DNA of 64,000 nt, taken from Phenylobacterium sp. GTDB taxonomy: Bacteria; Pseudomonadota; Alphaproteobacteria; Caulobacterales; Caulobacteraceae. Within the stretch, counting starts at the first letter, position 1, and each line of letters begins with the position of its first letter. Shown here one piece after another: positions 12,821 through 25,262 of this stretch. The position numbers and the translations under genes were made by a program. The notes beneath the pieces are model-generated. The model was given only the letters and a program-made list of their open reading frames with translations, did not search any database and was not told the origin of the DNA. The stretch spans positions 121,199 to 185,198 of the forward strand of contig NZ_JAUXSP010000018.1 in the NCBI RefSeq assembly GCF_030679875.1, written 5' to 3'.

Positions 12821-13537
12821 ATGACCCAATTGAAGCGCTACCTGCCCCTGCTGGTCCTCGCGATCGGCTTGGTCCTGGTGTTCACCAGTGACCTGGGGCG
12901 GTTTCTGAATCTGCAGGCCCTTCAGACGCACGAGGCGGCGCTGCGAGGCCTTGTCGCCGACAACCTGCCCCTGGCGCTGCTCGCCTTTATCGGCGTCTAC
13001 GCGCTGTCTACCGCGCTCAGCGTCCCGGGCGCGGTGATCCTCACCCTGGCGGGAGGCTACCTGTTCGGCATCTGGGTGGGGGGCGCAGCCACCGTAGTCG
13101 GGGCGACGATCGGCGCCATCGCCGTCTTCTATGCGGTCCGCACCTCCCTAGGCGCGGTTCTGCGACAACGGGCAGAGGCCTCGAACGGCCGGCTCAAGGC
13201 GATCATCGACGGGGTCGCCGCCGGCGCCTTCGGCTACATTCTGACCCTGCGCCTCATTCCGCTGGCGCCCTTCTGGCTGGTCAATGTGGCCGCCGCCCTG
13301 GCCCACGCCCCCCTGGCGCCCTATGCGCTCGCGACCTTCATTGGGATCATGCCGGCGACCTTCATCTACAGCGGCATCGGCGCCGGGATCGGCGATCTGC
13401 TGGCCCGCGACGAGGCGCCCGACCTGGGGGTCATCTTCCAGCCCAATATCCTCGGCCCCCTGGTGGCGCTGGGCCTGCTGTCCCTGGGGGTGACCCTCTA
13501 TCAGCGCCACCGCGCCAAGTCCGGAGACGCCCTGTGA
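12821..13537 (+). CDS. TVP38/TMEM64 (VTT-domain) membrane protein
   Basis: The ATG at 12821 has a GAGG ribosome-binding site and starts right at the first hydrophobic helix, giving 238 residues. Several membrane helices are visible, with the VTT-domain blocks 'LSVPGAVILTLAGGYLFGIW', 'GATIGAIAVFY' and 'RLIPLAPFWLVN'. DedA/VTT proteins are membrane transporters or scramblases, though substrates are mostly unknown. It overlaps the next flavoprotein gene by 4 bases (GTGA). Natural fusions of these two families are known in databases, so the pair is likely to work as one redox/transport unit. Confidence 0.92.
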   Translation: MTQLKRYLPLLVLAIGLVLVFTSDLGRFLNLQALQTHEAALRGLVADNLPLALLAFIGVYALSTALSVPGAVILTLAGGYLFGIWVGGAATVVGATIGAIAVFYAVRTSLGAVLRQRAEASNGRLKAIIDGVAAGAFGYILTLRLIPLAPFWLVNVAAALAHAPLAPYALATFIGIMPATFIYSGIGAGIGDLLARDEAPDLGVIFQPNILGPLVALGLLSLGVTLYQRHRAKSGDAL

Positions 13538-14955
13538 GCGCCAAGACCATCAAGGCCGATCTGGCCGTCATTGGCGCAGGCTCCGGCGGCCTGTCGGTCG
13601 CCGCCGGCGCCGCCCAGCTCGGGCTGAAGGTCGTCCTGTTTGAAAAGGGCGAGATGGGCGGTGACTGCCTCAACTATGGCTGCGTCCCCTCCAAGGCCCT
13701 GATCGCCGCGGCCGCCGCGGCGCACGAGGCGCGGCACGCTGCAAGGCTCGGGGTGCATACCTCCGGCGTGTCGGTGGATTTCAGTCAGGTCATGGCCCAC
13801 GTGCGCGCCGCCATCGCCACCATAGCCCCCCATGACAGCCAGGAGCGGTTCGAAGGTCTCGGCGTGACCGTGGTCCGAGAGCCCGCCCGCTTCCTCGACG
13901 CCCGCACCGTCGGCAGCGCGAGCCTGAGCGTCCGGGCGCGAAAGATCATCATCGCCACCGGATCGAGCGCAGCGATCCCGCCCATCCCGGGGCTCGACGC
14001 CGTGCCCTTCCTCACCAATGAGACGGTCTTCGAGCTCACAGAGGCGCCATCGCGGCTGATCGTCCTCGGAGGCGGTCCCATCGGGGTTGAGCTGGGCCAG
14101 GCCTTCCGACGCCTCGGCAGCGAGGTGGTGATCGTCGAAGCCGACCAGATCCTCGGTCGCGAAGATCCAGCGGCGGCGGCGATCATAGTGGAGCAGCTGC
14201 GCGCCGACGGGGTGGAACTGATGGCCGGCCGTAAGGCGGTGCGGGTCGAGGCCGGACCGACGCTGATTGTCGAGGATGAGGCCGGCGAAACGCGAATCTC
14301 CGGCTCCCACCTGCTGGTGGCCGTGGGCCGCAAACCCGCCCTGGACGCGCTCAATCTGGCGGCGGCGGGGATCGAACGTGACCGCAATGGCGTGGTCACC
14401 GACAGGTCGCTGCGCAGCAGCAACCGACGGGTCTACGCCGTGGGGGACGCCGCCGGACGCGGCCAATTCACCCACCTGGCCGGGGCCCATGCGGGTCTGG
14501 TGGTGCGTCGGGCCATCTTCGGCCTGCCGGTGAACGCCGATAGCCTGGCCAACCCACGGGTGACCTATGCCGACCCTGAACTCGCCGCCGTCGGGCTCAG
14601 CGAGGCTGAGGCCCGCAAGGTCCATGGGGACGACATCCGCGTGGAGACCTTCGACTTCGCAGGCAATGACCGCGCCATCGCCGAGGGGGACACTCGCGGC
14701 ATGGGCAAGCTGGTCACAACGGCCAAGGGCAAGGTGCTCGGCGTCACCCTGGTGGGTCGCCACGCGGGCGATCACATCGCGCTCTGGGCCCTGGTTCTGT
14801 CAGCCAGCCTGAAGCTCAGCCAAGTGACCGGCATGATCGCGCCCTATCCGACCCGCGGCGAGATCAGCAAGCGACTGGCCGGGCAGTGGTACACGCCCGC
14901 ACTCTTCTCCCCCCGAACACGCAAGGTGGTTTCGATCCTCAAGCGGCTAGCCTGA
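13534..14955 (+). CDS. Mercuric-reductase-like FAD disulfide oxidoreductase
   Basis: A 473-residue member of the lipoamide dehydrogenase / mercuric reductase superfamily. The FAD-binding 'VIGAGSGGLSVAAGAAQLG' and the redox-active disulfide 'GGDCLNYGCVPSK' are intact. The NAD(P)-binding 'VLGGGPIGVELGQ' and second FAD motif 'VYAVGDAAG' follow. The usual C-terminal His-Glu dyad (HPTxxE) reads 'YPTRGE', so the general acid/base of lipoamide dehydrogenases is replaced. The N-terminal heavy-metal domain and C-terminal Cys pair of MerA are absent. Coupling to the TVP38 gene suggests a membrane-linked oxidoreductase rather than a pyruvate dehydrogenase E3. The start is the GTG overlapping the previous stop. 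Confidence 0.9.
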   Translation: MSAKTIKADLAVIGAGSGGLSVAAGAAQLGLKVVLFEKGEMGGDCLNYGCVPSKALIAAAAAAHEARHAARLGVHTSGVSVDFSQVMAHVRAAIATIAPHDSQERFEGLGVTVVREPARFLDARTVGSASLSVRARKIIIATGSSAAIPPIPGLDAVPFLTNETVFELTEAPSRLIVLGGGPIGVELGQAFRRLGSEVVIVEADQILGREDPAAAAIIVEQLRADGVELMAGRKAVRVEAGPTLIVEDEAGETRISGSHLLVAVGRKPALDALNLAAAGIERDRNGVVTDRSLRSSNRRVYAVGDAAGRGQFTHLAGAHAGLVVRRAIFGLPVNADSLANPRVTYADPELAAVGLSEAEARKVHGDDIRVETFDFAGNDRAIAEGDTRGMGKLVTTAKGKVLGVTLVGRHAGDHIALWALVLSASLKLSQVTGMIAPYPTRGEISKRLAGQWYTPALFSPRTRKVVSILKRLA

Positions 14956-16048
14956 GGCCTCGGGCGCGGGCGACGAATCCCAGGTCGAGACGGCGCTTCA
15001 CCCAGAGCGCGCCACGACTCCGCCACCAGAGTTTGTCCCGGAGGGCGAGCCCGGTCTCGTCGCCGAGATCCATGATCGATAGCCATCGGCCTTGGGGGCG
15101 ATAGGGGCGCAGCGGCCCGGCCTGGGCCCTGGCGATCAGGTTGGCCAGCAGGATCGGCGCGGCTCGCACCCCGAACACGCCAACCGGCGGGCGCGGCGCC
15201 TTGGCGATCACCGCGCAGTCGCCGGCCGCGAAGACCGCCGGGTGATCGAGAGCCTGGAGTTCTGGGTTGAGCAGCAGGCGTCCCGCCGCATCCATCGCCA
15301 ACCCCAGGCCCCCTGTCAGGGAAGGCGCGGTGAGGCCTCCGGCGAGGACCAGCATCTCGCACTCCAGGTCCCGGCCATCGGCCAGACGGCAATGGCCATC
15401 CCCGCGCCCTGTGACCTCGCCCTGAAGGATCACGATGCCCCGGCCCCGCAGCCGCGGCAGCAGGTCAGCGACCGCAGCCCGAGGCGCCCAGGTCGCAGGA
15501 TGGGGCGAGACAAGGGTGAGCCTCGCAACCTGCCCATGGCGCTCGCAAAGCCCCGCGATGGCCGCAGAGACCTCAAAACCCGTTTGGCCGCCCCCCGCCA
15601 CCACGACGTGGGGGGAACGCCGCTCGCGCAGCAACACCGCCTCGAGCTGTTTCCGCAGATCAAACAGTCGGGTCAGCGGCTTGACCGGCCATACCCCCGG
15701 CGCGGCGGCCAGGTTGAGCGGGTCACGCACCACTGAGCCGATATTGAAGGAGATCAAGTCGAAGGCCTGATCTTCCCCCTCGGCCGTGCGCGTGACCTGG
15801 GCGGCCAGATCGACGGCGACGATGTTCGTCGGCAGATGCCTCACACCCTGCTGCGCCGCCAGGGCCGCGACATCGATCATGGCGGCGGACTCAGGCAGGG
15901 CGCCGGAGAGAACGCCTGTGGCCAGACCCGAATAGTGAAACGCCGCCGGCGCGATCAGCGTCACGTCCAGGTCCGCCGCGCGCAGGGATGCGGCATGGGC
16001 CAGCAGATGCAGGTGGGCATGGCCAGCCCCCGCCAGGACCAGCCTCAT
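14939..16048 (-). CDS. FAD oxidoreductase of the SelD N-terminal-domain type
   Basis: A 369-residue FAD/NAD(P)-binding protein related to type II NADH dehydrogenases and sulfide:quinone reductases. The N-terminus 'MRLVLAGAGHAHLHLL' has the Gly-x-Gly-His-x-His pattern typical of the oxidoreductase domain found fused to SelD in some bacteria (TIGR03169-type, recalled, not searched). A second Rossmann motif 'VVVAGGGQTGFEVSAAI' and a C-terminal FAD motif 'PAVFAAGDCAVI' are visible. No SelD kinase domain follows, so this is a stand-alone form. It converges with the mercuric-reductase-like gene, overlapping it by 17 bases. Its presence beside the two selenodomain-associated transferases is the main contextual clue. 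Confidence 0.82.
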   Translation of the reverse strand: MRLVLAGAGHAHLHLLAHAASLRAADLDVTLIAPAAFHYSGLATGVLSGALPESAAMIDVAALAAQQGVRHLPTNIVAVDLAAQVTRTAEGEDQAFDLISFNIGSVVRDPLNLAAAPGVWPVKPLTRLFDLRKQLEAVLLRERRSPHVVVAGGGQTGFEVSAAIAGLCERHGQVARLTLVSPHPATWAPRAAVADLLPRLRGRGIVILQGEVTGRGDGHCRLADGRDLECEMLVLAGGLTAPSLTGGLGLAMDAAGRLLLNPELQALDHPAVFAAGDCAVIAKAPRPPVGVFGVRAAPILLANLIARAQAGPLRPYRPQGRWLSIMDLGDETGLALRDKLWWRSRGALWVKRRLDLGFVARARGLRLAA

Positions 16049-16073
16049 GGTCTACTGCGCCATCCGCAAGGCC

Positions 16074-16886
16074 TCAGTCGGCCGCCAGCCGCGAAGACAG
16101 CGCCGTCATGTAAGCCTCAATCCGCGCGGCGTTGGCGCCCAAGTCGCCAAGACCAACGCGCGAGGTGGACCGCATGTCGATCATGCTGGAACCCTCAGAA
16201 CCAGCGGCGCGGACCCGCACGGCGACGTCATCCTTGAACCCGAACCAGAAGGTCTCGGCCGTGGCCTCGATCTGTCCGGTCGTGGCGTCGGCCGAAACCA
16301 CGGTCCAACCCTGGGCGCGCACCTCGGCTTCCGCCGCAGCGAAAGCCTCGGCAGGCGCGACGTCCGTGGCGAGGGACTTCAGCGCGGGATAGGCCGCCTG
16401 TCCGACCTGCCCCAGGGACTTGCCCGCCAGAGGCGCAAAACGTGGCCCCTGATAGGCTGGCAGGCTGGTGAGAGGCGCTGCGACATCGGCGACTGGATTG
16501 GCCGCCTCGGCGTCCCGCAGGGTCATCAAAGCCGGGGAATAGATGGGGGGATCCTCGATATTGGTCGTGACGTCGTGGATCGGCGGGATGTCCGCGGACT
16601 GGGCGCGCACATAGGCGAGATAGCCAAAGCCTGCGGCGGGGATCAGCAGGGCGACCAGCGCCGCGCGCCAGCCCGTTCGCGGGGCGCGGGCCAGGGTCGC
16701 CACCAGGGCGACAAGGGCGACAACCAGAGCGGCGATCAGCAGGCGCGGGCCCCACTGGATGATCAGCACCCCCAGCCCAACGCGCCAGGACCAAAGGTCA
16801 AACTTCACCCCCAGGGCGGCGCCCATGAACCAGAACGGGAGCAATAGCGACAGAACCAGGGCGAAACGGGCGATCAGCAGCCGCAT
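16074..16886 (-). CDS. DUF1499 membrane protein
   Basis: A 270-residue protein with three N-terminal hydrophobic helices and a periplasmic or cytoplasmic DUF1499 domain (about residues 125-265). Characteristic pieces are 'DIPPIHDVTTNIEDPP', 'AEAEVRAQGWTVVSADATTG' and the C-terminal 'RVGLGDLGANAARIEAYM'. Function is unknown. It lies 25 bases upstream of the FAD oxidoreductase gene in the same direction, so the two probably form an operon divergent from the radical SAM genes. Confidence 0.9.
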   Translation of the reverse strand: MRLLIARFALVLSLLLPFWFMGAALGVKFDLWSWRVGLGVLIIQWGPRLLIAALVVALVALVATLARAPRTGWRAALVALLIPAAGFGYLAYVRAQSADIPPIHDVTTNIEDPPIYSPALMTLRDAEAANPVADVAAPLTSLPAYQGPRFAPLAGKSLGQVGQAAYPALKSLATDVAPAEAFAAAEAEVRAQGWTVVSADATTGQIEATAETFWFGFKDDVAVRVRAAGSEGSSMIDMRSTSRVGLGDLGANAARIEAYMTALSSRLAAD

Positions 16887-17051
16887 GGCGTCAACCTTCT
16901 GCGAAATTCAGCAAGCGTGACCGTTTCACGATCCAGCCGGTCAGGATAGGGGGCAGAGCTTGAAACCAATCGGCGCCGGTGGCCGAATAGGCTTAGGAAG
17001 GCGGCTCGCGTCCCTGGGGCCCCCGCCGGCTGCCGCCTGCGCAAGGATACG

Positions 17052-18020
17052 ATGACCCAGACCGCCCTGTCTCCGTTCGCCACCCACCGCGGGCCCGCCA
17101 CTCCAGGACGCTTCTCCGATCCCTTGATCACGGCGGACGGCTCAGCGCGGGCGCGGGTCGAGTTGAAGGCGCTGGAGACCCTCTGGTTCAATACTGGCAG
17201 CCTTTGCAATATCGCCTGCCTGAACTGCTATATCGAAAGCTCTCCGACCAATGACGCCCTGGTCTATCTGACGGCGGCCGACTGCGCGGCCTATCTCGCC
17301 CAAATCGCTGAAGGCGATCTTCCCACCCGGGAGATCGGCTTCACCGGCGGCGAGCCGTTCATGAACCCCGACATTCTGACCATGCTCGACCTGGCGCTGG
17401 CCGGCGGACATCGGGTGCTGGTCCTGACCAACGCCATGCGGCCGATGATGCGCTGGGGCGACCGACTTGGGCGGCTGATCAATGACCATGGGGACCAGCT
17501 GACCTTTCGCGTCAGCCTCGATCACCACACACAAGCCGCCCATGACGCCGAGCGGGGCGAGGGAGCCTGGGACAAGGCTTGGGCGGGCCTGGACTGGCTT
17601 GGTGGCGAGGGCGCCAGGATCGCCATCGCCGGACGGCGTATGGCCGAGGAGTCAGAAGTGCAGGCGCGGATGGCCTTCGCCCAGTTGTTTGAAACCAGAA
17701 GCCTTGCGGTGGACGCCATAAATCCCGGCGCCCTGGTGCTGTTTCCCGAAATGGAGCCAGGCGCAGATGTGCCTGAGATCACAGAGGCTTGCTGGGGCAT
17801 TCTCAACCGGTCGCCAACTGAGATGATGTGCGCCACCAGCCGCATGGTGGTGCGCCGACGTGGCGCCGCTGGGCCGGTCGTCGTGGCCTGTACGCTGACC
17901 CCCTATGATCCTCAGTTCGAGCTGGCGGCGACCCTGGAAGGCGCGGCGACCGCCGTCAGCCTCAATCACCCCTTCTGCGCGCAGTTCTGCGTGCTGGGCG
18001 GGGCCAGTTGCAGCGCTTAG
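17052..18020 (+). CDS. Radical SAM protein of the arsenosugar/selenodomain-type locus
   Basis: A 322-residue radical SAM enzyme. The 4Fe-4S/SAM motif is CX3CX2C in 'GSLCNIACLNCY', followed by the SAM-binding 'GFTGGEPFMNP'. It would generate a 5'-deoxyadenosyl radical in the cytoplasm. The C-terminus is unusually Cys-rich ('PFCAQFCVLGGASCSA'), suggesting an auxiliary cluster or substrate-binding thiols. It is not clearly ArsS, whose N-terminal motif differs. It overlaps the next glycosyltransferase gene by 13 bases, so its product is probably handed to the two transferases. The substrate is unknown. Confidence 0.88.
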   Translation: MTQTALSPFATHRGPATPGRFSDPLITADGSARARVELKALETLWFNTGSLCNIACLNCYIESSPTNDALVYLTAADCAAYLAQIAEGDLPTREIGFTGGEPFMNPDILTMLDLALAGGHRVLVLTNAMRPMMRWGDRLGRLINDHGDQLTFRVSLDHHTQAAHDAERGEGAWDKAWAGLDWLGGEGARIAIAGRRMAEESEVQARMAFAQLFETRSLAVDAINPGALVLFPEMEPGADVPEITEACWGILNRSPTEMMCATSRMVVRRRGAAGPVVVACTLTPYDPQFELAATLEGAATAVSLNHPFCAQFCVLGGASCSA

Positions 18021-18703
18021 CGGCCCAGGTCGCCCCGCGGCTGTCGGTCATTATTCCCACCTTGAACGCCGCAGATGGCCTGGCCACAACCCTGGCGGCC
18101 CTGCCGTCGGATGCCGAGGTGATCGTGGTTGATGGGGGCTCATCCGACGCCACCCTCCAGGTGGCCGCAGCCGCCGGGGCGCAGGTGCTGCGCGCGCCCG
18201 CCGGGCGAGGCGGCCAGCTGGCGGCGGGCGTGGTTCAGGCCCGGGCCCCGTGGATGCTGTTCCTGCATGCCGACACTCGATTGGACGCCAAGGCCTGGGC
18301 GGCTCTCGAGGCCTTTGTCGCAGATGGCGCCAACCAGGACACCGCGGCGGCCTTTGGCTTTCGCCTCGACACCAGGGCCTGGCAGGCGCGGCTGCTGGAG
18401 CTGGGCGTTCGCCTGCGCGTGGCGCTGTTGGCCCTGCCCTATGGAGACCAGGGCATGCTGATCCACCGTCAGCTCTATGAGCGTGTCGGAGGCTATCGCC
18501 CCCTGCCCCTGATGGAGGATGTGGATCTGGTCCAAAGGCTCGGCCGCAGGCGCCTCCGTATTCTGCCCGGCGTCGCCCTGACCTCGGCGGTCCGTTGGCG
18601 CAGACGCGGCTGGATGCGCCAGAGCCTGCTCAACCTGCACTGCCTGGCCCTCTACCTGACCGGCGCCCCGCCGGCGCGTATCGCCCAGATCTATGGCCGC
18701 TGA
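18008..18703 (+). CDS. TIGR04283-type glycosyltransferase (rSAM/selenodomain transferase 2)
   Basis: A 231-residue GT-A fold family 2 glycosyltransferase. The nucleotide-sugar site is seen in 'LSVIIPTLNAADGL' and 'EVIVVDGGSSDATL', and the metal-binding DxD equivalent in 'MLFLHADTRLD'. A downstream 'GDQGMLIHR' and 'LPLMEDVDLVQRL' match the family pattern. Proteins of this type are annotated as arsenosugar biosynthesis glycosyltransferases because they occur with arsM/arsS. The TTG start overlaps the radical SAM stop, and the gene overlaps the next transferase by 11 bases. This indicates tight translational coupling of three steps. Confidence 0.9.
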   Translation: MQRLAAQVAPRLSVIIPTLNAADGLATTLAALPSDAEVIVVDGGSSDATLQVAAAAGAQVLRAPAGRGGQLAAGVVQARAPWMLFLHADTRLDAKAWAALEAFVADGANQDTAAAFGFRLDTRAWQARLLELGVRLRVALLALPYGDQGMLIHRQLYERVGGYRPLPLMEDVDLVQRLGRRRLRILPGVALTSAVRWRRRGWMRQSLLNLHCLALYLTGAPPARIAQIYGR

Positions 18704-19295
18704 CCGCAGGCGTCGCCACCTGGTGATCTTCGCTCGCCACCCTCGATTCGGCGTGGGCAAGCGGCGCCTGGCGGCCGATGTCGGCGACCTGGCCGCCCTC
18801 CGGTTTGGCCGGTACGCCCTGTCACGCCTTTGGCGAGAACTCGGCGCGGATCCCCGCTGGACCCTGTGGGTCGCCACCTCACCCGACCGGCCAAACGACT
18901 GGGTAAGGACAGGACGGGCCTGCCCACAGGGGCGCGGAGATCTGGGGGCCAGGCTCAAGCATGTGGTGCGCCGATTGCCGCCGGGGCCCGTCGTGATCAT
19001 CGGCGCCGATACCCCGGGGGTCAGCCGAACCGACGTAGCGGCCGCCTTCGCCGCCCTGGGCTCCAGGCCCGCGGTTCTCGGTCCCGCCCTCGACGGGGGC
19101 TACTGGCTGATCGGCCTTCGCCGGCGCCCCCGGGAGCCCCTACCCTTTGACGGCGTCCGCTGGTCCACCGCCGACACCTTGGCCGACACGGTCCGCGCCC
19201 TAGGCGACGTACAGATCGCCCAGCTCAAGGTTCGCGAGGATGTCGATGATGGCGAGGCCCTGCGCCGGGCGCTCACCCGGCGGCGGCTGGGCTGA
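18693..19295 (+). CDS. TIGR04282/DUF2064-type transferase (rSAM/selenodomain transferase 1)
   Basis: A 200-residue GT-A-like transferase of the DUF2064 family. The N-terminus 'VIFARHPRFGVGKRRLA' is the family's Arg/Lys-rich nucleotide site. 'GRGDLGARLKHV', 'VIIGADTPGV' (Asp for metal) and 'LGPALDGGYWLIGL' are the other hallmark blocks. In databases such proteins are listed as arsenosugar biosynthesis glycosyltransferases and nearly always travel with the TIGR04283 type. It is the last gene of the rightward trio and converges with the phosphorylase gene, overlapping by 23 bases. Confidence 0.9.
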   Translation: MAADRRRRHLVIFARHPRFGVGKRRLAADVGDLAALRFGRYALSRLWRELGADPRWTLWVATSPDRPNDWVRTGRACPQGRGDLGARLKHVVRRLPPGPVVIIGADTPGVSRTDVAAAFAALGSRPAVLGPALDGGYWLIGLRRRPREPLPFDGVRWSTADTLADTVRALGDVQIAQLKVREDVDDGEALRRALTRRRLG

Positions 19296-20154
19296 ACTTG
19301 CGGGGACAGATTGCGGCGAGTTTTTCGGCGAGCTCAGGATCCCACCGCGCCGGGTCGGTGATCACCGCATAGTCGAGGCCGGTATCAATCGGCGAGGGCG
19401 CGCGGGTCTGTGGCAAGGCCCTGGCGAGGTGGGCGATCATGCTGCGCGCGGTGTCGGCGTTGCTCTGCAGCACCTCCAGCACATTGGACACTTCCACATG
19501 GGCGGTGGCTTCGCGCCAGCAGTCGTAGTCGGTGACCATGCAGACATTGGCATAGGGCAGCTCCGCTTCCCGGGCCAGTCGGGCCTCTGGCATGGCGGTC
19601 ATGCCAATCACCGAGCATCCCCACGAGCGATAAAGGTGGCTTTCGGCCCTGGTGGAGAACTGGGGGCCTTCCATGGCCAGATAGGTGCCGCCCTCGACCG
19701 TCGGCGCTCCGGCCGCCCGGGCCGCGTCCGCCGCCGCAGCGGAGAGGCGCGGGCAGACTGGATCAGCCATGGAGACATGGGCCACAAGGCCTTCGCCGAA
19801 GAAGGAGGCCGGCCGCGAGACCGTGCGGTCGATATACTGATCCACAAGGACGAAGGTCCCCGGCGGCAGCTCTTCGCGAAGTGAGCCCACCGCCGATACC
19901 GACAGGATGTCGGTGCACCCGGCCCGCTTCAGGACATCGATATTGGCCCGGGCGTTGAGCGCGCCTGGCGAAATCCTGTGCCCCCGACCATGCCGCGGCA
20001 GAAAGACCAGCCGGACATCGTCGAGTTCGCCCGTGACCAGCTCATCGGACGGCGCCCCCCAGGGGGACTCGATCGACAGGGTGCTGCGGTTACGCAGACC
20101 GTCCAGCTCATAGAGACCAGAGCCCCCGATGATCCCCAAGGTCCACTGTTTCAT
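19273..20154 (-). CDS. S-methyl-5'-thioadenosine / 5'-deoxyadenosine phosphorylase
   Basis: A 293-residue phosphorylase that splits MTA (and often 5'-deoxyadenosine) into adenine and a 5-substituted ribose-1-phosphate. I use the ATG at 20154 ('MKQWTLGIIGGSGLY'), which begins the domain exactly. The phosphate site 'FLPRHGRGH', substrate loop 'AMEGPQFSTRAES' and the adenine-selective 'TDYDCWRE' are all present. The Asp pair of the last motif favours adenine over hypoxanthine. In this locus it may recycle the radical SAM by-product or remove adenine from an adenosyl-conjugated intermediate. General methionine salvage is the alternative role. Confidence 0.93.
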   Translation of the reverse strand: MKQWTLGIIGGSGLYELDGLRNRSTLSIESPWGAPSDELVTGELDDVRLVFLPRHGRGHRISPGALNARANIDVLKRAGCTDILSVSAVGSLREELPPGTFVLVDQYIDRTVSRPASFFGEGLVAHVSMADPVCPRLSAAAADAARAAGAPTVEGGTYLAMEGPQFSTRAESHLYRSWGCSVIGMTAMPEARLAREAELPYANVCMVTDYDCWREATAHVEVSNVLEVLQSNADTARSMIAHLARALPQTRAPSPIDTGLDYAVITDPARWDPELAEKLAAICPRKFSPAAAG

Positions 20155-20333: not shown

Positions 20334-21092
20334 ATGACCGGACCAGACGCCCTTGGGCTCTCATACTGCGGGCCAGCGCCACAACCGCTTGAGGTCTGGG
20401 CAAGCTGGAATCTTGACCCCGTCCTTCTCGCCGCCTTCGCGCTTGCGACCAGCCTCTTTATGTGGCGCGCAAGGGCGACGCCCCACCAGAAAGGCGCGTT
20501 TTTCGGGGCCCAGGGCGTACTGCTCGTGGCCTTCGTCTCCCCTCTGTGCGCCCTGAGCGTGGCGCTGTTTTCCGCCCGCATCGGCCATCACATGCTGATG
20601 GTGGCGGTGGCCGCGCCGCTGCTGGCCTACGCCCTGCCCCGGGCCGTGCCTGGCCGCTGGCTGACCGCAGCGGGCCTCCTGCACATGGTCATCCTGTGGA
20701 TGTGGCACGCGCCCCCGGCCTACGGCTGGGCGGTGACCGGGGTCGCCAGCTACTGGCTCATGGAGATCACCCTGCTGGCCAGCGCTACAGTCTTCTGGAG
20801 CGCAGCACTCGCCCGCCGTGCCGAGGCGCCGGCGGTGATCCTGGCCCTCATCCTCACCATGGCGCAGATGGGACTTCTGGCGGCGCTGATCACCTTCGCC
20901 CAGCAGCCCCTGTTTTCCGCCCATTTCGCGACAACCCAGGCCTTCGGGCTGACCCCGTTGGAAGACCAGCAACTGGCAGGACTGATCATGTGGGCGCCGG
21001 GCGCCCTGCCCTACTTCGCGGCGGTCATCTGGCTGGCCGTGCGCTGGCTCAAGGGTCTTGAGAATGACGAGGCGATGGCGTGGCGTGGCTGA
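20334..21092 (+). CDS. ctaG: Cytochrome c oxidase assembly protein, CtaG_Cox (caa3) family
   Basis: A 252-residue integral membrane protein with about six or seven helices. The family pattern includes 'FSARIGHHMLMVAVAAPLLA' and 'HMVILWMWHAPPAYGW', with conserved His residues likely to bind copper. Caa3-type CtaG proteins help insert copper into the oxidase. It is unrelated to the Cox11-type CtaG. The gene heads a rightward block with a CopD-like gene and the oxidase subunits, and overlaps the next gene by 13 bases. Confidence 0.92.
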   Translation: MTGPDALGLSYCGPAPQPLEVWASWNLDPVLLAAFALATSLFMWRARATPHQKGAFFGAQGVLLVAFVSPLCALSVALFSARIGHHMLMVAVAAPLLAYALPRAVPGRWLTAAGLLHMVILWMWHAPPAYGWAVTGVASYWLMEITLLASATVFWSAALARRAEAPAVILALILTMAQMGLLAALITFAQQPLFSAHFATTQAFGLTPLEDQQLAGLIMWAPGALPYFAAVIWLAVRWLKGLENDEAMAWRG

Positions 21093-21571
21093 AATTCCTG
21101 CATATCGCCGCCCTGCTGATCTGGTGCGCCGGCTTGGTTTATCTCCCGGGCCTGCTCCTGGCCCACAGGAACATGACCAACCGGGAGGATTTCATCCGGA
21201 TCCGCAACGCCAGTCGGTTCAGCTACAACGCCATCACCTCGCCCGCGGCCTTCGTCGCCATTGGGGCCGGGACGGCTCTGCTGCTGCTGGCGCCGGGCGT
21301 TCTGCAGGGCTGGATGTTCGTCAAGCTGGCCCTGGTGGGGGCCCTGGTCATGGCCCATGTACAGTACGGCTTCGTCCTGTCGGCTCTGTCAGAGCTTGGC
21401 TCCAAGCCGCCGCGCCTTCGGCTGCTGGCCGTCTGGATCCTGGTCTTCGTGGCGATGACGGCCATCCTCTGGCTGGTGCTGGAAAAGCCCTTCCTGGGAT
21501 CGAGCCGGCTGCCGGCCTGGCTGCTGGAGCCCGGCGGCCTTCAGTCCTTGCTGCCTTCGACGCCGATCTGA
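21080..21571 (+). CDS. CopD/HemJ-like membrane protein
   Basis: A 163-residue protein with four hydrophobic helices. The N-terminal 'MAWLKFLHIAALLIWCAGL' has the His in helix 1 shared by CopD-like and HemJ-like proteins, and 'FSYNAITSPAAFVAIGAG' follows. These proteins bind copper or haem in the membrane. The start is a GTG overlapping ctaG. Position between the oxidase assembly gene and the oxidase genes suggests a role in copper or haem supply to the oxidase. The tail is C-terminal to the last helix and overlaps the opposite-strand DUF2231 gene by 31 bases. Confidence 0.85.
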   Translation: MAWLKFLHIAALLIWCAGLVYLPGLLLAHRNMTNREDFIRIRNASRFSYNAITSPAAFVAIGAGTALLLLAPGVLQGWMFVKLALVGALVMAHVQYGFVLSALSELGSKPPRLRLLAVWILVFVAMTAILWLVLEKPFLGSSRLPAWLLEPGGLQSLLPSTPI

Positions 21572-22050
21572 TGCTCGAACACCAGCTTGCCCCCATGCCA
21601 GCCGGCCAGGCCGACGAAGATCAGGCCCAGGACCGACAGGAACAGGCCCCAGGGCAGGACCGCGGTCTCGCGGTCAAAGAGCCGCAGTCCCCAATTGGCG
21701 CCGATAATGCTCAGCAGCATCATCGCGGCGACCGCATGGCTCCAGGGCTCGGCGCTGCGCCGGATGCCCCGGACCAGAAGCAGCTCGGCCGTACCGCTGG
21801 CCGCAGCCGCCACCCCCATGGCGAAGCCCCAGCCGCTGGTCCACAGACCCACCCGGGCGAAGAAGGGGTCGGCGCTCCACCAGTAAAAGAGGTCTGCCCC
21901 CAGGGTGGCGCACACCAGGGCGATCGGGAAGGTCACCAGCATCACGTGAACCGGATGGCCCGCGACCTGGATGCTCGAGGCGACATTGCCCGAATGAGGA
22001 TCCTCAGACCGATCCTGCGCGAGGGGGGGATGCTCTTGCGTCTGCGACAT
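21541..22050 (-). CDS. DUF2231 membrane protein, antisense within the oxidase block
   Basis: A 169-residue protein with four hydrophobic helices. The signature 'GHPVHVMLVTFPIALVCATL' with paired His is typical of DUF2231, a family often seen near respiratory genes and possibly haem-binding. It is coded against the direction of its neighbours, lying between the CopD-like gene and coxB. Its annotated 5' end overlaps the coxB 5' end by about 21 bases in divergent orientation, so one of the two starts may lie further inside. The C-terminus overlaps the CopD-like gene. Confidence 0.85.
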   Translation of the reverse strand: MSQTQEHPPLAQDRSEDPHSGNVASSIQVAGHPVHVMLVTFPIALVCATLGADLFYWWSADPFFARVGLWTSGWGFAMGVAAAASGTAELLLVRGIRRSAEPWSHAVAAMMLLSIIGANWGLRLFDRETAVLPWGLFLSVLGLIFVGLAGWHGGKLVFEHQIGVEGSKD

Positions 22051-22743
22051 GGGAGCCCAACGCGGCTGAGCCTTAATAGCTCCGCCGTAGCCGCCGGCCT
22101 TTTGCTCAGCGGTTGCGATACGCCGCTCTCGACCCTGGCCCCGGCGGGAGAGGCGGCCAGCACGATTGCGACCCTGTGGTGGGTGATGCTGACCGCAGCG
22201 GTTCTGATCTTTGTCGGCGTGGTCGGCGCCGCCCTCCTCCCCCTGATGACCCGGCGGCTCAAAGCCCCCTCAACCCGGGCCATGCTCATCGGGGGCGGTC
22301 TGGCCTTTCCCGGTGTCGTGCTCGTGGCGTTGCTGATCGCGGCCCTGGTCATTGGTGACCGGCTGAGCCCGCGCGGAGAGCCCGACGTGCTGCGCATTGA
22401 GGCCGAAGCCCACCAGTGGGGTTGGACATTCCGCTATCCCGACGCGCCGGGCCAGGCCGCCACAGCCGGCGTGATGCACGTGCCCGTGGGCCGTCCCTTT
22501 GAGGTGTATGTGACCAGCCGCGATGTGATCCACAGCTTCTGGGCCCCCAGGCTAGGCGGCAAGATCGACGCCATCCCCGGCCAGGTGAACGTCATCCGCC
22601 TGCAGGCTGACGCGCCGGGCGCCTATCGCGGCCAGTGCGCCGAATTCTGTGGCCGCGGTCACGCCATGATGGATTTCGTCCTCCAGGCCCACAGCGCCGA
22701 TGACTATCGCGCCTGGCAGTCCAGGCAAGGGGCCGGCCAATGA
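22030..22743 (+). CDS. coxB: Cytochrome c oxidase subunit II
   Basis: The long track ORF is a read-through. I place the start at the ATG at 22030, right after GAGGGGGG, giving 237 residues. A lipoprotein-type signal with lipobox 'LLSGC' is followed by two membrane helices and a periplasmic cupredoxin domain. The Cu-A site is complete in 'GQCAEFCGRGHAMM', with the upstream His in 'SRDVIHSFW', so this is a cytochrome c rather than quinol oxidase. No C-terminal haem c domain is present. The gene overlaps coxA by 4 bases. The start is somewhat uncertain because of the divergent overlap with the DUF2231 gene. Confidence 0.93.
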   Translation: MLLRLRHGSPTRLSLNSSAVAAGLLLSGCDTPLSTLAPAGEAASTIATLWWVMLTAAVLIFVGVVGAALLPLMTRRLKAPSTRAMLIGGGLAFPGVVLVALLIAALVIGDRLSPRGEPDVLRIEAEAHQWGWTFRYPDAPGQAATAGVMHVPVGRPFEVYVTSRDVIHSFWAPRLGGKIDAIPGQVNVIRLQADAPGAYRGQCAEFCGRGHAMMDFVLQAHSADDYRAWQSRQGAGQ

Positions 22744-25262
22744 CGGATCAAACGCACAGCCCCGCCACACCGCTGTCGACCATCGGCCGCCACAAGGCGC
22801 TGGAGCGCCTGTGGGCGACGCCGCCGGGCTGGGGGGCCCTGTCGGCGGTGAACCACTCCACCATCGGACTCCGGTTCATCATCACCGCCTTCGTCTTCTT
22901 CCTGATCGGCGGAGTCCTGGCCATGCTGATCAGGGCTCAGCTTGCGGGTCCTGAGACCGACTTCCTGGACGCGGCCGCCTACGCCCAGGTCTTCACCATG
23001 CACGGCACGGTGATGATGTTCCTGTTTGCCATCCCGGCCATCGAGGGGCTGGCGCTGTACATGCTGCCCAAGCTGATGGGGGCCAGGGACCTGGCCTTCC
23101 CGCGGCTCAGCGCCTTCGGCTACTGGTGCTACCTGTTTGGGGGATCGATCCTGATCCTGGCCCTGCTGGCCGGGGTCGCGCCGGACAGCGGCTGGTTCAT
23201 GTACACGCCGCTGTCGTCCAAACCCTACTCGCCGGGGATCAATTCCGACGTCTGGCTGATCGGCGTCACCTTTGTTGAGGTCTCGGCGGTCTGCGCGGCG
23301 GTGGAGTTCATGACCACCGTGCTGAAGATCCGCACCGGCGGCATGGCCCTGCACCGGATGCCGATCATGGTCTGGTACCTGTGGGTCACCGCGGCGATGA
23401 TGCTCTTCGGCTTCCCGCCCCTGATCCTGGGCAGCGTGCTTCTGGAGCTGGAGCGAGCCTTCGACTGGCCCTTCTTCGACCCCACCCGTGGAGGAAGTCC
23501 GCTGCTCTGGCAGCACCTCTTCTGGCTGTTCGGCCACCCGGAGGTCTACATCATCTTCCTGCCCGGGGCCGGCATCATCTCCACCATCCTGCCGGTGTTC
23601 ACGGGTCAGAAGTTGGTGGGCTACGCCTGGATCGTGGTGGCCCTGATCGCGCTGGGCTTCATCAGCTTTGGCATCTGGGCCCACCACATGTTCGCGACCG
23701 GGATACCGCACCTGTCGCTGGCCTTCTTCTCGGCGGCCAGCACCCTGGTGGTGATCCCCACGGCGGTGCAGATCTTCGCCTGGCTGGCCACCCTGCTCAG
23801 CGGACGCCCGCGCATCACCCTGTCGATGCTCTACTTCTACGGCTTCCTGTCGACCTTTGTGATCGGCGGCCTGACTGGGGTGATGGTCGCCGTGGTGCCC
23901 TTCGACTGGCAGGCGCACGACACCCACTTCATCGTCGCCCACCTGCACTATGTGCTGATGGGTGGCTTCGTCTTCCCCGTGCTGGCCGGCATCTATTACT
24001 GGCTGCCGCACTTCTCGGGACGCAAGCATCTCGAGGGCCTTGGCCGAACCGCCTTCACCCTGATCATGCTGGGGTTCAACGCCTCATTCCTGCCCATGCA
24101 TCTGACCGGCCTTTTGGGCATGCCGCGCCGGGTGTTCACCTATGGCGGCGACATGGGATGGGACCTGCTGAACCTGATCAGCTCCGTCGCCGGCTTCGTG
24201 CTGGCCATCGGCTTCGCCCTGGTGGTGGTCGATGTCATCCAAGTGGTCAGGTTCGGCCGCCGCGCCCGTCGCAATCCCTGGGGCGCCAGCACCCTGGAAT
24301 GGGGCATGCCCACCCCGCCCCCGTCCTACAACATCGGCTCACAGCCCCAGGTCACCAGCCGCGACCCGCTCGAGGATGATCCGGGCCTTCCCGCCGCCCT
24401 GGCCAGGGGCGAGGGCTATCTGGGCCAACCCCGCAATGGCTGGCGCGAGACGCTGGGCGTCCACATGCTGAGCGGCGAGCCCGACCAGGTGGTGCTGCTG
24501 CCTGGGCCGACCCTGATCCCGCTCTGGACCGCCATCGCCACAGGCCTGTTCTTCCTCAGCTTCCTGTTCAAGCTCTACCCGCTCTCCGGCCTCGCCTTCG
24601 TCCTGATCGTAATCTGCGGCTGGCGATGGATGTGGGCCTCGGGCCTGCCCGCCGACGCCGAGCCGGTGGATATCGGCCTGGGACGAAGGGCGCCGCTTCA
24701 TCCCACCGCCGCCGATCCTCCGAGCCTCTGGGGGATGGTCTTCACCCTGATGGCCAACGGCGTCTTCTTCGGCGCCCTGGTGTTCGGCTATCTGTTCCTC
24801 TGGGTGGTGGCGCCCAACTGGCCGCCGCCGAGCCTGCTGGCGAAAGAGGCTGTGACACCTCTGTTGATCCTGGCGGGTCTGGGCGTCGGGCTCACGGCGA
24901 TCTGGCGCGCGAGCCACGCCAACCGCGAGGGTCTGGTTGAGGCCAGCCGCACCTGGCTGCTGGTGTCGGCGGCGGCGGGCGCCGTCACCTGCGGCGCCGC
25001 CCTGGCCGTCCCGCTGTTCACCGCTCCGCCCGCCGACAGCCACGCCTACGCGGCGGCCGTGACCTTTATCAGCGGCTATGTCGCCTTCCACGGCTTGATC
25101 GCGGCGATCCTCAGCGCCTACGCCTGGGCGCGGTCCAAGGCCGGTTGGATATCGGCTCGGCGCGGGGTGGAGTTCGCCGCCCTGCGCCTTTGGTGGCTCT
25201 ATCTCAGCGCGGTCGGGCTTATCAGCCTCGCCCTGCTGCACGGCCCGGTGTGGTTCGCATGA
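22740..25262 (+). CDS. ctaD: Cytochrome c oxidase subunit I fused to subunit III
   Basis: An 840-residue fusion. Residues 1 to about 530 are subunit I with the haem a ligand region 'MHGTVMMFLF', the Cu-B His and cross-linked Tyr in 'GHPEVYIIFLP', 'WAHHMF', and both haem ligands in 'HDTHFIVAHLHYVL'. A linker leads to a C-terminal membrane domain (about residues 590-840) that resembles subunit III and has further helices. Such I+III fusions are known in caa3-like oxidases. It pumps protons while reducing oxygen in the inner membrane. The gene overlaps coxB upstream and a small membrane protein gene downstream by 4 bases each. Confidence 0.95.
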   Translation: MTDQTHSPATPLSTIGRHKALERLWATPPGWGALSAVNHSTIGLRFIITAFVFFLIGGVLAMLIRAQLAGPETDFLDAAAYAQVFTMHGTVMMFLFAIPAIEGLALYMLPKLMGARDLAFPRLSAFGYWCYLFGGSILILALLAGVAPDSGWFMYTPLSSKPYSPGINSDVWLIGVTFVEVSAVCAAVEFMTTVLKIRTGGMALHRMPIMVWYLWVTAAMMLFGFPPLILGSVLLELERAFDWPFFDPTRGGSPLLWQHLFWLFGHPEVYIIFLPGAGIISTILPVFTGQKLVGYAWIVVALIALGFISFGIWAHHMFATGIPHLSLAFFSAASTLVVIPTAVQIFAWLATLLSGRPRITLSMLYFYGFLSTFVIGGLTGVMVAVVPFDWQAHDTHFIVAHLHYVLMGGFVFPVLAGIYYWLPHFSGRKHLEGLGRTAFTLIMLGFNASFLPMHLTGLLGMPRRVFTYGGDMGWDLLNLISSVAGFVLAIGFALVVVDVIQVVRFGRRARRNPWGASTLEWGMPTPPPSYNIGSQPQVTSRDPLEDDPGLPAALARGEGYLGQPRNGWRETLGVHMLSGEPDQVVLLPGPTLIPLWTAIATGLFFLSFLFKLYPLSGLAFVLIVICGWRWMWASGLPADAEPVDIGLGRRAPLHPTAADPPSLWGMVFTLMANGVFFGALVFGYLFLWVVAPNWPPPSLLAKEAVTPLLILAGLGVGLTAIWRASHANREGLVEASRTWLLVSAAAGAVTCGAALAVPLFTAPPADSHAYAAAVTFISGYVAFHGLIAAILSAYAWARSKAGWISARRGVEFAALRLWWLYLSAVGLISLALLHGPVWFA

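Follow-up and report, generated by a model that had tools for sequence, protein, structure and literature searches.

A compact locus of eight genes, at positions 12821-20154 of a 64,000-nucleotide stretch of Phenylobacterium sp. DNA (contig NZ_JAUXSP010000018.1, positions 121,199 to 185,198; hereafter the window, which belongs to contig C7 of the 3.5 Mb assembly), is on balance best read as an arsenosugar-type adenosylation cluster where the part of ArsS is taken by a radical S-adenosylmethionine (SAM) enzyme that is not ArsS. Grouped with the gene for this enzyme, which belongs to an uncharacterised family (termed rSAM in what follows), are genes for a TVP38/TMEM64 membrane protein, a MerA-like FAD/NAD(P) disulfide oxidoreductase (FADox), a TIGR03169-like FAD oxidoreductase, a DUF1499 membrane protein, two transferases of the TIGR04283 and TIGR04282 families, and a 5'-methylthioadenosine phosphorylase (MTAP). 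The observations behind the reading are the gene families themselves, their conserved linkage, their genome-wide co-occurrence, and the partners that rSAM loci have in common with ArsS loci; the simplest account that these suggest is that the rSAM family stands in for ArsS in a pathway of the arsenosugar type. In oxo-arsenosugar biosynthesis it is ArsS that is reported to adenosylate arsenic (PMC12159101, citing Cheng et al. 2021).

Gene neighbourhoods shared with ArsS loci

Two alphaproteobacterial loci that encode a true ArsS (L181 and L182) have the gene order TIGR04282, a TVP38-FADox fusion, ArsS, MTAP, TIGR04283, a metallophosphoesterase, a PhnD-like binding protein and a TIGR03169-like protein; the radical SAM protein aside, DUF1499 is the one family of the Phenylobacterium locus that they do not hold. 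In L229, a third locus with ArsS, the set comprises MTAP, ArsS, TVP38, FADox, TIGR04283, TIGR04282 and ArsM, and several of the 18 ArsS loci examined show ArsS alone or with one partner. Around rSAM the same families recur: the order is TIGR04282-TIGR04283-ArsM-rSAM-TVP38-FADox in one locus (L221) and DUF547-TIGR04282-ArsM-rSAM-MTAP in another (L223), while Sphingomonadales loci (L055, L073, L084, L120 and others) hold TIGR04282, TIGR04283, a short-chain dehydrogenase/reductase (SDR), ArsM, FADox and rSAM. The ArsM that stands beside the rSAM partners is of one and the same subfamily in L221, L223, L150, L151 and at least 10 Sphingomonadales-type loci. Overall, the partners in 80 named rSAM loci are TIGR04283 (28), TIGR04282 (27), FADox (25), TVP38 and MTAP (12 each), ArsM (10) and metallophosphoesterase (7).

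This clustering around rSAM is not due to chance: TIGR04283 lies within ~9 kb of rSAM in 28 of the 80 named loci, against ~0.5% expected under random placement. A fortuitous neighbourhood of unrelated genes would accommodate the Rhodobacteraceae-type loci (e.g., L040 and L075), in more than 30 of which the rSAM gene and zwf-pgl-edd are divergently oriented and the pathway partners are missing from the vicinity; it does not accommodate the clustering of the same families in many differing orders across several bacterial orders, or their co-occurrence in genomes even when unlinked, and is extremely hard to credit. The initial annotation of this DNA had proposed a sequence of adenosylation, phosphorolysis and sugar transfer, and had made the idea depend on the gene set being conserved in relatives. 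Comparison of neighbourhoods finds the set conserved together, and finds it around true ArsS as well; the idea is thus partly supported and comes out strengthened. The locus is also less of an orphan than that annotation supposed, because arsenic is now the favoured substrate.

Co-occurrence was scored in 289 alphaproteobacterial genomes, with rSAM detected at E <= 1e-10. The family is present in 84, one of them with a weak partial match that was excluded, leaving 83 genomes with rSAM to be compared with 206 without. TIGR04282 is found in 77/83 of the former and 25/206 of the latter, and TIGR04283 in 78/83 and 24/206, respectively; in many of the genomes in which the three co-occur they are not neighbours. 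Judged by eye, rSAM and TIGR04282 are jointly present or absent within seven families (f1, f14, f24, f41, f67, f94 and f114); other families are discordant, mostly through TIGR04282 occurring without rSAM, and in some cases in incomplete genomes. The rSAM protein is itself well conserved (~58% identical across Alphaproteobacteria), and at least 573 stretches in the genome collection encode it. ArsS occurs in 56 and rSAM in 8 of 115 genomes sampled across the phylum, the two together in none, and 2 ArsS genomes stand beside the 83 rSAM genomes among the 289.

Additional genes accompany these loci. In four of the Sphingomonadales loci (L042, L055, L084 and L120) the transferases and arsM have between them an additional SDR gene, whose product is related to thioester-reductase domains. 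A metallophosphoesterase gene follows the rSAM gene in many Alphaproteobacteria (L072, L098, L107, L113, L121, L124, L131 and L132), with a relative beside ArsS in L181 and L182; a sugar phosphate of the pathway could be the substrate of its product. The PhnD-like protein, a phosphonate-type binding protein that is encoded near rSAM in L044 and L070 and near ArsS in L181 and L182, could import methylarsenicals. In Alphaproteobacteria that lack the rSAM gene (loci L187, L188, L193, L195 and L197) a TIGR04283-TIGR04282 pair adjoins an APH-like kinase (family PF01636), accompanied in L187 and L195 by an ATP-binding cassette transporter; the same transferases perhaps have another use in this context. 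A link to the molybdenum cofactor, prompted by TIGR04283/TIGR04282 genes beside moaB in many Alphaproteobacteria and by a MoeX-like name, was set aside, since the genes of the moaB-containing segment (dsbA-mutY-ccrM-rnhB ... udg-ETFQO, with names assigned by eye) are unrelated to one another and form a block that is conserved in the chromosome.

The radical SAM enzyme and the arsenic genes

The rSAM gene (17052-18020, plus strand) encodes a protein with a CxxxCxxC motif that scores above the cut-off of PF04055; its closest named relatives are from Phenylobacterium and other Caulobacteraceae (82% identity). Among 33 aligned members of the family, further cysteines are invariant (including those at 260, 280, 309, 313 and 320), a pattern that is consistent with an auxiliary cluster. 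The protein is not ArsS: it scores 53.3 bits against TIGR04167 (cut-off 300), with the match confined to the radical SAM core, whereas the true ArsS of L181 scores 445.7 bits; the C-terminal DUF3641 domain (PF12345), which that ArsS matches at 184.8 bits, finds no match in it. The two cores are nevertheless homologous (profile comparison probability 98.9-99.7%, as against 0.1% for an unrelated radical SAM family), at 22% identity in the profile alignment. The closest NCBIfam model is that of the Rv1681 (MoeX) family, NF049973, at 90.5 bits (93-122 bits for other rSAM members); all of these fall far under its cut-off of 380, and no function for Rv1681 was found in the literature searched, which holds almost nothing on any of the protein families considered here. 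The structure model (pLDDT 89.5) and the sequence recover, in fold and sequence searches of the PDB, generic radical SAM relatives only (SkfB, SuiB, BlsE, EpeE, MoaA and viperin), none of them specific.

The window contains no arsM, ArsS or selD, and nothing in the whole genome reaches the TIGR04167 cut-off for ArsS. The initial annotation's description of the locus as lacking arsM and selD thus holds for the window but not for the genome, which has an ArsM-like gene on a different contig (C19, 364038-365102) and selD on yet another (C23). The ArsM-like protein does not reach the cut-offs set for the ArsM models; it is 65% identical to the ArsM of the Sphingomonadales clusters and retains the cysteines in YYGCG, SNCV and GEC, which are the arsenic-binding positions of ArsM. 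Its subfamily is present in 6 of the 289 genomes, all six of which have the rSAM enzyme; a broader ArsM search finds a match in 15/83 genomes with rSAM and 4/206 without. As a separate observation, ArsM-family matches with one in-frame TGA occur in six genomes (G093, G194, G196, G208, G281 and G287), five of which carry the rSAM family; they are likely to represent selenocysteine-containing ArsM proteins.

An adenosyl-selenium compound was one of the products entertained by the initial annotation, alongside an arsenosugar-like and some other adenosyl-derived compound. Several of these families were first named for an association with selenium, and the genome's selD match is above cut-off. However, selD adjoins mnmH (identified by eye), the gene of tRNA selenouridine synthase, so that tRNA modification accounts better for selenium, and none of the rSAM loci seen has a linked selenium gene. 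A selenium product is therefore very improbable, and of the products proposed the arsenical one is favoured.

The other genes of the locus

All eight open reading frames of this 7.3 kb locus are present where the initial annotation had placed them. The rSAM gene heads a plus-strand series in which it overlaps the TIGR04283 gene (18008-18703, with a TTG start at 18008) by 13 nt, and the latter overlaps the TIGR04282 gene (18693-19295) by 11 nt. The TIGR04283 protein, a GT2-type glycosyltransferase, scores 217.1 bits against a cut-off of 182. The TIGR04282/DUF2064 protein, a CofC-like transferase, matches TIGR04282 over its full length at 130.2 bits, 4 bits short of the cut-off of 134, and DUF2064 at 99.8 bits (cut-off 25.8). 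Upstream of rSAM, a divergent intergenic region of 165 bp (16887-17051) is probably a promoter region, as far as gene positions and sequence allow it to be predicted. On its far side lies a minus-strand pair: DUF1499 (16074-16886; PF07386, 76.4 bits, above cut-off), a family that accompanies rSAM, variously arranged, in clusters of Caulobacterales and Sphingomonadales, and the TIGR03169-like gene (14939-16048). The product of the latter is a distant member of its family (197.9 bits over its full length, against a cut-off of 310); its counterpart in L181, close to ArsS, reaches the same level (198.6 bits), and relatives adjoin rSAM in L033-L036 and L111 and lie near ArsS in L181 and L182.

The TVP38 gene (12821-13537, plus strand; VTT domain, PF09335, 74.8 bits against a cut-off of 33.9) overlaps the FADox gene (13534-14955, plus strand) by 4 nt. 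FADox has a CxxxxC redox motif and its best model is NF004991 (444 bits, cut-off 620). As mercuric reductase MerA (TIGR02053) it scores 344 bits, below the cut-off of 454: it is MerA-like, not MerA. With the corresponding proteins of ArsS and rSAM loci it shares 41-55% identity. The initial annotation had also made its idea depend on more than a distant relationship to the families that it named: TIGR04283 and PF09335 are matched above cut-off, TIGR04282 is 4 bits short, and the relationship to TIGR03169 and TIGR04167 is distant. Beyond the last gene, at 20334-25262 of the window, lies a cytochrome oxidase cluster (a caa3-type CtaG-like assembly factor, UPF0093, DUF2231 and oxidase subunits).

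That last gene encodes MTAP (19273-20154, minus strand, with an ATG start at 20154), which passes the cut-offs of TIGR01694 (292.6 bits, cut-off 275) and NF006492 (440.4 bits, cut-off 437). It converges on the TIGR04282 gene, their ends overlapping by 23 nt, and the genome has no second MTAP gene, so that the enzyme cannot be credited to this locus only. Genomes with MTAP within an ArsS or rSAM locus have a single copy as well; the enzyme therefore probably takes part in ordinary methylthioadenosine salvage too. The question that arises is whether it is simply a housekeeping enzyme, next to TIGR04282 by accident, with adenine removed by some other enzyme or not removed at all. Full-score membership in the family, single copy and convergent orientation would all fit such an assignment, as would the one rSAM genome (G121) without an MTAP match. 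Yet the MTAP gene is part of the ArsS loci L181 and L182 and of the rSAM operon L223, and in Caulobacterales and Sphingomonadales it adjoins rSAM clusters. Moreover, two genomes of the same taxonomic family as that of the window (G063 and G278), which lack rSAM and TIGR04282, also yield no MTAP match. A purely housekeeping MTAP is the less probable case, although one to be taken seriously; it touches a single component and is compatible with the arsenosugar-type reading, since one enzyme may do both jobs.

A proposed route and its implications

The likeness of the locus to ArsS arsenosugar clusters extends from the partners (TIGR04282, TIGR04283, TVP38, FADox, MTAP, the TIGR03169-like gene and, in some loci, ArsM) to the homologous radical SAM core and a similar C-terminal cysteine pattern; the differences are that the radical SAM protein is of another family, without DUF3641, and that arsM is not linked. 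The hopanoid pathway, in which HpnH and HpnG convert adenosylhopane to ribosylhopane, resembles the locus in logic, with radical SAM adenosylation preceding removal of adenine by a phosphorylase. Its acceptor, however, is a hydrocarbon, the locus matches HpnH and HpnG at 31 and 28 bits only, and no common neighbourhood was seen. Arsinothricin biosynthesis (arsQML; PMC8552651) also involves a carbon-arsenic bond formed by a radical SAM enzyme with an ArsM partner, but the group transferred there is 3-amino-3-carboxypropyl rather than deoxyadenosyl (PMC12159101), and the cluster as reported consists of the three genes arsQML.

The route suggested by these comparisons is one whose chemistry we infer throughout, including the arsenic substrate and the roles of the redox and membrane proteins; that the phosphorylase removes adenine and that TIGR04282 and TIGR04283 transfer the sugar is deduced from the gene set and the usual chemistry of these families. 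The ArsM-like protein encoded on the other contig would convert arsenite to dimethylarsenite; ArsM reportedly supplies the dimethylarsenic (Xue et al. 2017, in the references of PMC8787705). The rSAM enzyme would then cleave SAM, and the 5'-deoxyadenosyl radical would attack arsenic to generate 5'-deoxy-5'-dimethylarsinoyl-adenosine. MTAP would take off adenine, leaving arsinoyl-ribose 1-phosphate, and TIGR04282 and TIGR04283 together would activate the sugar or pass it on to an acceptor, for instance glycerol or a lipid. FADox, the TIGR03169-like oxidoreductase, TVP38 and DUF1499 may look after redox state and membrane handling.

Several facts weigh against this scheme. The rSAM gene lies near no partner in many Alphaproteobacteria. 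The P values for co-occurrence ignore shared ancestry and are hence overstated, and the mutual exclusion of ArsS and rSAM is confounded with taxonomy, the two sets of genomes also being taxonomically separate. The C-terminal domains of rSAM and ArsS show no significant relationship in profile comparison (E 0.009, probability 2%). The arsM of this genome is not linked to the locus and has neighbours other than arsenic genes, and the single MTAP gene is convergent with the rSAM operon and outside it. Finally, no ArsM is detected at the thresholds used in 68/83 of the rSAM genomes, which may depend on import of methylarsenicals or act on another substrate.

The last of these points, taken together with the fact that 77/83 rSAM genomes have both transferases, lends itself to a different interpretation: that rSAM, TIGR04283 and TIGR04282 make a non-arsenical adenosyl-derived sugar with some other acceptor atom, and that ArsM and the ArsS-type partners joined them in some lineages only. 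It is countered by the identity of the clustering partners, which are those of ArsS and include ArsM in several lineages, by the enrichment of ArsM in rSAM genomes, by the PhnD-like protein as a conceivable importer of methylarsenicals, and by the two alphaproteobacterial ArsS genomes, in which the broader search likewise finds no ArsM. A non-arsenical product is on these grounds rather unlikely. Its broader form is a speculation of similarly low probability: that in the ArsM-less Alphaproteobacteria with all three genes the trio makes a widespread, undescribed 5'-deoxyadenosyl-derived sugar other than an arsenosugar, the arsenic version being a side branch.

The arsenosugar-type reading suggests a second, unstudied bacterial way of attaching arsenic (or something similar) to a sugar. 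The known genetics of arsenosugars consists of ArsM and ArsS; if the reading is true, searches based on ArsS have missed most of the arsenosugar potential of the Alphaproteobacteria. It also gives TIGR04282, TIGR04283 and the MTA-type phosphorylase roles that can be put to the test. Should the substrate turn out not to be arsenic, a conserved alphaproteobacterial metabolite would still be there to be found.

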